The position numbers were made by a program, and so were the translations under genes. Below are positions 59,669 to 64,000 of a DNA stretch of 64,000 nucleotides, piece by piece. The first letter of the stretch is position 1, and each line of letters starts with the position of its first letter. Under the pieces are notes generated by a model. It was not told the origin of the DNA. It saw nothing but the letters and a program-made list of their open reading frames with translations, and did no database searches. Origin of the DNA: Gammaproteobacteria bacterium (GTDB taxonomy: Bacteria; Pseudomonadota; Gammaproteobacteria; Natronospirales; REEB76); NCBI GenBank assembly GCA_035279405.1, contig DATEHU010000011.1, forward strand, positions 62,001 through 126,000, in the 5' to 3' direction.

Positions 59669-59713
59669 TGGTGCCGGCGGAGAGAGTCGAACTCCCGACC
59701 CACGCATTACGAA
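59669..59713 (-). other. 3' half of a tRNA gene, probably Thr(CGU); likely attachment site
   Basis: On the minus strand the segment runs from the anticodon loop TTCGTAA (anticodon CGT at 59709-59711) through a TTCGA-type T loop to the CGCCGGC acceptor strand and an encoded ACCA. The 5' half is missing: upstream bases do not give a D arm or a matching acceptor strand. A truncated tRNA end with changed composition beyond it is the usual mark of an integrated element, with the intact tRNA expected at the other end. Confidence 0.7.
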
Positions 59714-60095: not shown

Positions 60096-60383
60096 TTAAT
60101 TTGTCAACCCATACTGTTTCATTTCCGCATAGACTTCCTTGATCTCTCGATTTAGCTGTTTGATGTACTCGTTCGCAACCTGGGTAAATAGGTCATCGCC
60201 TAGATTCTCAAGCTTGATCTGGAACTCGCCGGTTTTCATTCGGAGAATGAGCTTGTTGAACGCGCTCTTGACGTCGTCTGCCTTATCCTCAGACAACGGG
60301 ATCAGTGTGGAACCATCCTTAAGCTCAATGCTGATGAAGTGCTTTTCATCGATCTGCACAACTGTAGACTTAACCGTTTCCAT
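60096..60383 (-). CDS. Small protein coupled to the PHP-ATPase, unknown
   Basis: The 95-residue acidic protein starts METVKSTVVQIDEKHFISIE. Beta strands come first (FISIELKDGSTLIPL), then two helices, VKSAFNKLILRMKTGEFQIK and YIKQLNREIKEVYAEMKQYG. It has no signal peptide, membrane segment or cysteine. Its ATG overlaps the PHP-ATPase stop by 14 bases, which argues for co-translation and joint function. I know no family for it. It could be a subunit or a regulator of the ATPase. Confidence 0.7.
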   Translation of the reverse strand: METVKSTVVQIDEKHFISIELKDGSTLIPLSEDKADDVKSAFNKLILRMKTGEFQIKLENLGDDLFTQVANEYIKQLNREIKEVYAEMKQYGLTN

Positions 60384-62514
60384 AGATGTTTCCCCGTTCC
60401 CCGAACGCGTCCTCGCCACCTTCCAGAGTCCGCATGCTCACTTTCTTCCAGTCCATCTTGTCGGTGGCGTCCTCAGGATTCACCAGGTTGTTGGTGAAAG
60501 GGTTACCGATGTACGTGGAATAGCCCTCTTTACTATGGCACCTGTAGATCGAGCTGTAAGGTAGCGTCCGGACGGCGATGTTTGCATCATGAGTCGATAT
60601 GAAGACCCTCTTGTTCTCCCGGGCGCGCTCCTTGAGGAGCGGCACGATTACATCGCTGATGTACTCATTGCCCAGGCTCATTTCCGGCTCGTCCAGTATG
60701 TAAACGTCCTTATCTGTGCCTAGTTCCTTCTGCAGCATTACCATCGAGGCCTCGCCGCTCGATGGCTCGTACTGCTCGCCGCCAAGGGCGAAATACCTCT
60801 TGAAGAGCAGCACTTCGTATACTGTCGTGATGGCCTCCACATCTTCGATCTCGTTGAGGTCGGAGATGCACTGGAACAGATCGTCCGAGTAAACGTGCGC
60901 GAGCACCTCACGGACTCCATGGACGAACTTCTTTATCGCTGATTTCTTCGCACCCTTGATTGCCCGCAGCGAGCCGTCCGTCACATTTCCGTCCTGAAAC
61001 CTGAACTCCGTCAGCAGTTCCAGCTCGCCCTTTTCCGGCCCGAGGCTTCCGATCGGTTCCCTAAGCGTCGGGATTCCGGTCTCGATGCTCTTCACAATCG
61101 CTGATGCACTCCGTTCGATGGCTATCCGATTCTTAGCGTAGGCGCGGAACCCGGTATTCATCGGCATGGCCGGCTTCCCCGTCTTGCGCTCCACCTCCTT
61201 GCGGAACAACTTGATGGCTGAATTGAGCAGATGGATCTCCTTCCACTCGGAGAAGCTGGACCATCTCCGCCCACCCAGACGGCTCGCGAGAACGGACAGC
61301 AGGGTATCGAGCTGCCCGCGCTCCTTCATGGAAAGCACCTGCTTCACCGAGGCATTCGCAGACAGAAACCCTAGAAATTCCTGCGTCATCTTCAGGGCCT
61401 CGTTGAAGCCCTGGAAGTCCCTCTTGGGACCGCCGTACTCCTCGGGTTCGATGTCCTTCAGCAGTATCTTCTTTGCGTTCTTGTTCGTAATGTCCGACTG
61501 GTAGTATGCCTTGTACTTCGCAAGGCTGGTCACGTCGACCTCGGACGCTTCGTGCAATGCGCTGATCTCGTTTTGGCAATAGTTGATCTGATGGTCATTT
61601 AGGTTGATGCCCAGCTTCGCACCTGCTGTGTCGTAGATCTCATCCAATCGGCCGCTTGCCGACACGTAGACGCTCGCGTCAATCCCGCTCTCCGTGTAGT
61701 GCTTAGCGATGGCCCTAAGGATGCAAGACTTACCTGTGCCCTTAGGGCCGAACACCACGTTGATGTCGTTGTAAGCCCTGACCTCCAGCACTGAGCCGTC
61801 GTCGAACGGCCGTAGCGTCAACTGCTCGGGCGTCTTCCTGTCGAGGACAGTATTGATGGTTGTTGGGTCCTTGTTCAGCAGCAGACAGAAGTGCTCGAAG
61901 CTGTCGACAGGCAACCTCAAGTCTGGGAGTTCAGCGGCACACTCAGCGTATTTCGCCCAGTCATGGAGGTCAGACCCGTATATGGAGCCATAGCCGTGCG
62001 AGATATATATCCCTGCCGAGATCGAGTTGGTGACCTCCTTGAGGACAAAGTTCGGGTTTTTCGTCCCGGTTAGGAGCTTCCCAAGGGCCGCGTCCGGCAA
62101 CCCCGGTTGTTTCTGCTTGTAATGTGCCACATACAGGGGCTTCATTGCATCGAAACCGGAGAGCACCTCCTCAATAGCAACAGTGAAGGTGTCTGGGCTC
62201 TCGTCCTTCGTGAGCGACTTCACCACTTTCGAGAACTTATCGGCGGCCGTGGGAGCTACGATGACCAAGAGGTGGCCTCTAGCACCATCCTCGACGATGT
62301 CGAGTTCTACACCGGGCCAGACCTGGACGTTGCCATTCATACCGACCAGGATTTCCTTGTATTGCGCGAGGTCGAAAACATTGTGGTTGGTGATCGCGAT
62401 GATGCCGACGTCCGTGGAGACGACGGTTTCGCAAAATTTCTTCGGAGCGATCTCCCGAGTGTGGGCGTCTCCTGACTTGCACCTCTTGGTGTGGGTATGA
62501 ATGTCAATCTTCAT
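60370..62514 (-). CDS. PHP phosphoesterase-ABC ATPase fusion protein, TrlF-like
   Basis: The 714-residue protein has an N-terminal PHP metal-phosphoesterase domain. IDIHTHT at 3-9, AITNHN at 40-45, PGVELDI at 67-73 and GSDLH at 180-184 supply metal ligands. An SMC/Rad50-like ATPase follows, with Walker A VVFGPKGTGKS near 253-263, a helical middle, a signature-like PSSGEAS near 585, Walker B VYILDEPEMS near 604-613 and an H-loop FISTHDANIA near 638-646. This layout resembles TrlF-type AAA-like ATPases found by restriction systems and points to a phage-defence nuclease, by inference. Composition is less GC-rich than upstream genes. Confidence 0.8.
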   Translation of the reverse strand: MKIDIHTHTKRCKSGDAHTREIAPKKFCETVVSTDVGIIAITNHNVFDLAQYKEILVGMNGNVQVWPGVELDIVEDGARGHLLVIVAPTAADKFSKVVKSLTKDESPDTFTVAIEEVLSGFDAMKPLYVAHYKQKQPGLPDAALGKLLTGTKNPNFVLKEVTNSISAGIYISHGYGSIYGSDLHDWAKYAECAAELPDLRLPVDSFEHFCLLLNKDPTTINTVLDRKTPEQLTLRPFDDGSVLEVRAYNDINVVFGPKGTGKSCILRAIAKHYTESGIDASVYVSASGRLDEIYDTAGAKLGINLNDHQINYCQNEISALHEASEVDVTSLAKYKAYYQSDITNKNAKKILLKDIEPEEYGGPKRDFQGFNEALKMTQEFLGFLSANASVKQVLSMKERGQLDTLLSVLASRLGGRRWSSFSEWKEIHLLNSAIKLFRKEVERKTGKPAMPMNTGFRAYAKNRIAIERSASAIVKSIETGIPTLREPIGSLGPEKGELELLTEFRFQDGNVTDGSLRAIKGAKKSAIKKFVHGVREVLAHVYSDDLFQCISDLNEIEDVEAITTVYEVLLFKRYFALGGEQYEPSSGEASMVMLQKELGTDKDVYILDEPEMSLGNEYISDVIVPLLKERARENKRVFISTHDANIAVRTLPYSSIYRCHSKEGYSTYIGNPFTNNLVNPEDATDKMDWKKVSMRTLEGGEDAFGERGNIYGNG

Positions 62515-62936: not shown

Positions 62937-64000
62937 TCAGTTCCTCGCGACCACAGTGTCATAGAGCCCATAGTGAACTAGACCCTCGTGACTCTCGATT
63001 CCGGTATAGGCAAGCGAGGCATCTTCGTAGCGGCGGAAGGCGAAAACGGCCTGATTCATCTGCTCAGTATTGAATACCCGCAGACGCACAAGCAGATGAA
63101 AATCCTCTACTGTCAGACCCGTAACAGCAAGAAATAATTCAGGCTCGAGCTTAGTAATGACATCCTGAAGCGTGTTCTCTCGGAAATCGGTCAGGTACAT
63201 GAACGCTGGTATGCGCGTAGCAAACTTGATCAGTTTCTCCTGAACGAGCTTACGCTTGGACTTGTATTCTTTCTCCTCCTCGGTAAGTTGCTTCATCTGC
63301 TTCGCCGTCAGATCGTGATCTTTAGCCTTGTTCTTGAGCTCCTTGACCTTCTCGCTTTTGTTAATAATCGTCTCAATGATATTGTCACCGAGCGCGCGCC
63401 AGCCCTCGATGCGCTCTACGGCAGCCATTGCCTCGGGATTGTCCATGATTCGGCGCAGAGTGTCGTTGTCCACGTTCACGAGCAGCGCGGATTCCCACTT
63501 GCGGGCAAGGAGCGTGGCGGAGGTGCCGGCCATCGCGATGTCGAGAATGCCACCCGCATCAATCTGCGTCATGTTCGCGCCGTCGTAGGCCAGCACTGGC
63601 AAGAATGACACGAGGTCCTTGACGGCGTTCTCGGGGTTCGACTCGTTGGGCGAAAGGCCGATCGCGTAGTCCGAGAGCTGCCGTAGCGCGCGCGTGGGCG
63701 CGAAGTCGAACACAAAACAGGCGGGCTTGAAGATTTCCTCCTCGTTCGGATCGTCGCCGTTGGGATTCTTGATGGACCACGGTGATTGCACACGAAACGC
63801 CGACTGAAAATACGTCTCCGGCGACTTCAGATTTCGCAGCATCAAGATAGATGACCACTGCGGCACGGTGACGCCGGTCGTGAGCTTGCCGCACGAAAGC
63901 ATGATGGTCTTGGTGTCGAAACCGCTGCCGATGGCCTTGCGCACGGGCGGCAGCGCGTCCAACCCGATGCCTGCCGAAGAGCCAGCGGTGACGATTGCAG
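62937..64000 (-). CDS. C-terminal part of a probable SF2 helicase/restriction-type protein (start beyond window)
   Basis: The last 354 codons of a gene run on past the window edge, since the frame is open to position 64000. TIMLSCGKLTTGVTVPQW and SPETYFQSAFRVQSPW resemble SF2 helicase motifs V and VI (the R-rich Q..FR end). These are followed by CFVFDFAPTRALRQLSDYAI, a helical region with Lys/Glu-rich stretches (KSEKVKELKNKAKDHDLTAK) and a C-terminal globular part. Large helicases of this kind occur in restriction and other phage-defence loci. Neither ATP motif I nor a nuclease is within the window, so the exact system stays open. Confidence 0.6.
   Translation of the reverse strand, partial: AIVTAGSSAGIGLDALPPVRKAIGSGFDTKTIMLSCGKLTTGVTVPQWSSILMLRNLKSPETYFQSAFRVQSPWSIKNPNGDDPNEEEIFKPACFVFDFAPTRALRQLSDYAIGLSPNESNPENAVKDLVSFLPVLAYDGANMTQIDAGGILDIAMAGTSATLLARKWESALLVNVDNDTLRRIMDNPEAMAAVERIEGWRALGDNIIETIINKSEKVKELKNKAKDHDLTAKQMKQLTEEEKEYKSKRKLVQEKLIKFATRIPAFMYLTDFRENTLQDVITKLEPELFLAVTGLTVEDFHLLVRLRVFNTEQMNQAVFAFRRYEDASLAYTGIESHEGLVHYGLYDTVVARN

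Follow-up and report, generated by a model that had tools for sequence, protein, structure and literature searches.

A mobile PHP–ATPase gene with an obligate small partner, a candidate two-gene defence module related to PDC-M49

The gene pair and its integrated element

The stretch of DNA analysed here (the window; 64,000 nucleotides, positions 62001-126000 of contig C11, DATEHU010000011.1) comes from a gammaproteobacterial genome of 2.46 Mb in 59 contigs. Close to its end lie two overlapping genes, exactly as described in an earlier note on this sequence, among the following features:

59669-59713, no strand: attachment-site remnant of 45 bp, identical to the 3' end of tRNA-Thr(CGT); distal end of the integrated element
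60096-60383, minus strand: small partner gene, 95 aa from its ATG; predicted fold b-b-b-a-b-a
60370-60383, minus strand: overlap of the large and small genes, 14 nt
60370-62514, minus strand: large gene, a PHP phosphoesterase fused to an SMC/Rad50-type ABC ATPase, 714 aa
62663-62854 (about), minus strand: frameshifted GIY-YIG-type relic (LYAIVRPSGK / VNYVGVTKKSRVRERI), recognised by eye
62937-64000, minus strand: C-terminal part of a helicase, an intact 847-aa gene cut by the window end; a neighbour and not a member of the pair

The pair resides in an integrated element of 18.6 kb (contig 121669-140335, or window 59669 to window-equivalent 78335), and the window stops inside it. The element is inserted in tRNA-Thr(CGT) and bounded by a perfect 45-bp direct repeat, the second copy of which is the tRNA 3' end at contig 140291-140335 (window-equivalent 78291-78335), and it encodes a tyrosine integrase (contig 139228-140268). 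The tRNA scar suspected in the earlier note is therefore a perfect copy of a tRNA end located 18.6 kb away, and the GIY-YIG relic and neighbouring helicase that the note had pointed out were likewise recovered, with the relic separating the pair from the helicase gene. The helicase, the N-terminus of which appears GIY-YIG-like by eye, is followed beyond the window by a separate N6-MTase gene, and the two (contig 124937-129248; window 62937 to equivalent 67248) match the two halves of the REase_MTase_IIG model (2.4e-33 and 4.4e-36), so that together they resemble a split type IIG/ISP-like restriction-modification (RM) system. Fusion of a GIY-YIG domain to a helicase is an uncommon arrangement. 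The element also carries SRAP-like and Y-family polymerase-like genes, both identified by eye.

A PHP domain and an ABC ATPase in one protein

The large protein consists of two domains and a conserved tail, with the following landmarks:

61843-62514, minus strand: PHP domain, residues 1-224, with metal ligands H6, H8, H44, E70, H81, H131 and D182
60373-61830, minus strand: ABC ATPase, residues 229-714, catalytic residues invariant in 50 homologues
61726-61749, minus strand: Walker A, GPKGTGKS
60751-60771, minus strand: ABC signature, YEPSSGE
60682-60705, minus strand: Walker B, YILDEPE
60580-60597, minus strand: H-switch, STHDAN
60373-60426, minus strand: C-terminal tail LEGGEDAFGERGNIYGNG, a candidate interface

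An AlphaFold2 model of the protein (pLDDT 86.8) was searched with Foldseek, which matched the N-terminal part to the PHP domains of RNase AM, Pol III alpha and PolC and the ATPase part to the heads of SMC, RecN, Rad50, JetC and AriA. Across 50 relatives the seven PHP ligands listed above are invariant or nearly so, and the key residues of Walker A (GxKGTGK), the signature (YxPSxGE), Walker B (DExE) and the H-switch (TH) are invariant. Since both sets of residues are conserved across relatives, both active centres look functional. The last PHP ligand position, residue 184 (window 61963-61965), behaves differently, being H in 20 relatives, Q in 14, K in 9 and R in 3, and the claim of full metal motifs consequently holds for the window's own sequence but not for the family. 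A variable residue beside the invariant D182 suggests that the metal site is modified in many members.

The C-terminal tail LEGGEDAFGERGNIYG is also strongly conserved, with E698, G699, F704 and R707 invariant and Y711 nearly so, yet the monomer model leaves residues 705-714 disordered (pLDDT < 50). Invariance in a segment modelled as disordered suggests that the tail may gain order against a partner.

The small gene as a constant companion

Every one of the 67 records in which the 3' end of the large gene is readable, near-duplicates (three Desemzia copies and two NORP200 contigs) and a small number of broken large genes among them, has a small gene that follows on the same strand and overlaps it. 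The pair is conserved together across genomes, a point that the earlier note had proposed to check. Measured from the in-frame ATG nearest to -14, the overlap is exactly 14 nt in 43 of the 67 records and 11 nt in 13, and in the window it likely reflects translational coupling. Purifying selection acts on the small gene (median dN/dS 0.13 over pairs, calculated without the first codons), and this, together with its presence in 67 of 67 records, refutes an accidental downstream open reading frame.

Distances among the large proteins are strongly correlated with those among their partners (r = 0.96; none of 2000 permutations as high), although shared ancestry feeds this figure, which is evidence that the two are inherited as a unit but does not alone demonstrate contact. 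Each of 21 pair-bearing genomes has the partner at the pair locus, and beyond these copies the search gave just two weak matches; among 398 genomes searched with the partner profile the single match was the window's own pair. No orphan copy was confirmed in either set, and the small gene is an obligate companion of the large one. Apart from ABC-transporter ATPase-type genes, no third gene recurs near the pair. A retron-like RNA is unlikely, since the upstream DNA held no element conserved across the family and no Rfam family above threshold.

The 95-aa protein could not be assigned in the earlier note, and our sequence and fold searches matched it to no known family, although its structure is predicted with high confidence (pLDDT 90.5, b-b-b-a-b-a). 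It has no recognisable nuclease motif. Foldseek matches to HIV integrase cores in the PDB were meaningless (TM ~0.33, rmsd 13 A), and Pfam matches to GapR, DbpA and Ybfg_C were weak and inconsistent across the family. A sub-threshold resemblance to LmuC of Lamassu, found in 14 of 49 partner proteins (best 7e-5) and covering partner residues 48-89, is a weak lead only.

Relationship to PDC-M49 and other PHP- or ABC-type systems

The closest named relative was identified by searching defence-system profiles. PADLOC assigned the large protein to PDC-M49A (1.6e-34), with 117.5 bits against 1046.8 bits for a canonical member, and hhalign aligned it with canonical PDC-M49A over essentially its whole length (100%, E = 3.8e-47, 647 columns). 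Both are a PHP domain joined to an ABC ATPase and are of similar size (674-681 positions versus 714 aa here), but they share only about 20% identity. The gene layout is also alike. Canonical PDC-M49 loci (in Rhizobium, Phaeobacter, and on Enterococcus and Staphylococcus plasmids) have a gene of ~95-100 aa directly downstream, on the same strand and with overlapping ends (20 nt or more), and in the three canonical loci tested this gene is PDC-M49B. In contrast, the PADLOC PDC-M49B models did not match the window's partner, and across the partner family they matched one of 49 members, weakly (8e-4). Two hhalign runs likewise detected no homology between the partner and PDC-M49B (probability 0.2% in one of them). 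As the large subunit is homologous over its full length and the layout is the same, while the partner is unmatched, we read the pair as a divergent sister subfamily of the candidate system PDC-M49, with the same architecture, a homologous large subunit and a small subunit of unproven relation. The general kind has thus already been proposed as defence through PDC-M49A, and the partner subfamily is not covered by that proposal. PDCs are defence candidates from a 'guilt-by-embedding' screen, most of them still unvalidated (PMC12988326), and are attributed there to Payne et al. (bioRxiv 2024); our literature search found no paper naming PDC-M49.

The single-chain PHP-ATPases TrlF and Ppl share the same domain order. 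TrlF model NF045780 weakly matches 49 of the 50 relatives, and hhalign aligned the large protein with a Ppl protein (97%) over the PHP domain and Walker A, with the N-terminal PHP and C-terminal ABC-type NTPase arranged as in the large protein. On this basis the gene might be regarded as a plain TrlF or Ppl member followed by an accidental open reading frame, but we consider this extremely improbable. Against the NF045780 model, which has 944 positions, the large protein scores 79.9 bits where the cutoff is 350, and at 714 aa plus a partner it is, as the earlier note had observed, shorter than the single TrlF protein (~900 aa), the range for these single-chain proteins being about 890-940 aa. 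Its match to the PADLOC Ppl model is limited to a C-terminal stretch (17.6 bits), the NCBIfam Ppl model matches 12 of 50 relatives (best 7.4e-8), and Ppl, an E. coli anti-phage protein of about 890-930 aa, is described as single-gene (PMC12904381). The partner, in turn, is present in all records and under selection, whereas no downstream partner was found at the two TrlF genes checked (Cupriavidus and Polaromonas), in keeping with the earlier view that it lies outside the TrlF family, and no overlapping partner was found at the one Ppl locus examined.

Similarly, AriA of PARIS and PtuA of Septu and retron I-A have related ABC ATPase heads and follow a comparable logic of a small ATPase with a second protein, and AriA is the best PDB profile match of the large protein (9e-11). 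In those systems, however, the nuclease or effector is a separate protein; in the present pair the ATPase and the nuclease-like domain form a single chain.

Sporadic distribution and mobility

An alignment-based scan of one genome per species identified 65 further loci in other genomes; a scan of the same genome set with the large protein alone as query returned nothing. In the tree, copies from Pseudomonadota, Planctomycetota and Actinomycetota are intermixed around the query, and an Arthrobacter copy adjoins one from Salinicoccus. Closer to the window's genome, the large protein is absent from all ten same-genus genomes, and 144 relatives yielded no full-length copy, which argues against the ATPase being a single-gene housekeeping family. 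A plasmid search recovered a full-length relative, 50% identical, in Photobacterium damselae, as well as broken large-gene copies on Enterococcus and Staphylococcus plasmids. The pair family is sporadic, crosses phyla and is mobile as a unit. No relatives were found in viral contigs or annotated phage records, so that at the sensitivity of these searches neither collection gives evidence of phage-borne copies.

Some of the plasmid copies are decayed in a particular way. The large gene is frameshifted in E. faecium pKO1 and in an E. faecalis plasmid, and in S. epidermidis SAP105A it is truncated beside IS257; in each of these the partner is still open. Intact copies of the genes disrupted on these E. 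faecium, E. faecalis and S. epidermidis plasmids occur elsewhere. A contig of Desemzia sp. RIT 804 holds three copies of the pair at a spacing of exactly 73,123 bp, representing either a tandem-amplified element or an assembly concatemer.

The distribution bears on whether the pair could be a mobile DNA-repair factor comparable to SbcCD or Mre11-Rad50, in which the PHP domain replaces the Mre11 nuclease and the small protein is an accessory factor. The resemblance of the ATPase head to Rad50, RecN and SMC would fit such a role, and in Pol III and PolX the PHP domain acts as a proofreading or repair nuclease. SbcCD and Mre11-Rad50, however, are inherited vertically and occur in most members of a lineage, while the pair is sporadic, with phyla mixed in its tree, no copy in the ten same-genus genomes, no full-length copy in the 144 relatives and a partner profile found in one of 398 genomes. 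Carriage on plasmids and an integrated element, and a closest named candidate (PDC-M49A) drawn from a defence-only library, also argue against this explanation, which we regard as very unlikely.

Proposed function

We consider it probable that the pair is a mobile two-gene conflict module, combining a PHP nuclease, an ATPase and a small partner, and that it most likely acts in defence against phage or mobile elements. The anti-phage appearance remarked on in the earlier note is supported to this extent, in that the small gene accompanies homologous ATPases and the large protein matches a candidate defence family. The flanks of relatives provide further context, containing genes for type I and II RM systems, DpnII, BsuBI/PstI, AriA, Mad and Dpd. 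A survey of these flanks matched 250 PADLOC families, compared with 38 (mostly broad kinase-type models) in a control of 82 non-island open reading frames from the window's genome, but as this control is crude, being not taxon-matched and counting families and not genes, the comparison gives support but does not settle the question.

The mechanism of Ppl offers the best available model for the PHP-ATPase, used here as an analogy and not as a statement of membership. As reviewed in PMC12904381, bound NTPs restrain the 3'-5' ssDNA exonuclease activity of Ppl until phage deplete nucleotides and create 3' ends. By comparison, the large protein would be effector and sensor in one chain: its PHP part would be a metal-dependent phosphodiesterase, probably an exonuclease, mounted on an ABC ATPase of the SMC/Rad50 type with short arms, and the heads of this ATPase would dimerise around ATP. 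The 95-aa protein, probably produced by coupled translation as an obligatory partner, would bind the ATPase or the conserved C-terminal tail and either assemble the complex or keep the nuclease quiet. By analogy with E. coli Ppl, the PHP nuclease would be held in check while ATP or NTP occupies the heads, and would be set free when phage-made DNA ends appear and nucleotide pools fall. On this analogy the large protein is probably a PHP nuclease that is gated by ATP in the manner of Ppl and has a small regulator of its own; we infer the binding of the two proteins, the nuclease activity, its trigger and protection from phage.

By comparison, it appears unlikely that the pair is a toxin-antitoxin-like unit, with the PHP-ATPase arresting growth as a nuclease, the small protein acting as its antitoxin, and retention of the island or plasmid as the main purpose. 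Such a unit would account for a small, stable, co-evolving partner, for the frequent location of the wider PDC-M49 group on plasmids beside recombinases, and for partners that stay open where the large gene is broken (pKO1, E. faecalis, SAP105A), as expected if the partner is harmless. Antitoxin genes, however, usually precede the toxin gene, a dual enzyme of 714 aa with complete ATPase motifs would be an unusual toxin for addiction, and location on a chromosomal island together with an RM-like pair is just as compatible with defence. Many defence systems act as toxin-antitoxins, and the two readings overlap.

Within the defence reading, a more specific proposal can be made, which we hold tentatively and think somewhat doubtful. 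The 95-aa family, for which no sequence relation to PDC-M49B is detectable, may constitute a new class of dedicated subunit that regulates PHP-ATPase immune nucleases or acts as their sensor, and the compact PHP-ATPases may form a two-subunit class distinct from single-chain Ppl and TrlF that senses a different phage cue.

If the defence reading is correct, the PHP-ATPase immune nucleases would gain a widespread two-protein branch. Lacking a model for the partner, PADLOC would overlook this branch. Dozens of natural pairs, with cultured hosts such as Shewanella, Vibrio, Salinicoccus and Blautia, would then be at hand for studying the control of an ATP-gated PHP nuclease by a small protein, and for asking whether extra domains took the place of such a partner in single-chain Ppl. 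Pairs are also present in Saccharibacteria (TM7), including Candidatus Nanosyncoccus alces, which has a small genome, suggesting that they are of value in reduced genomes.
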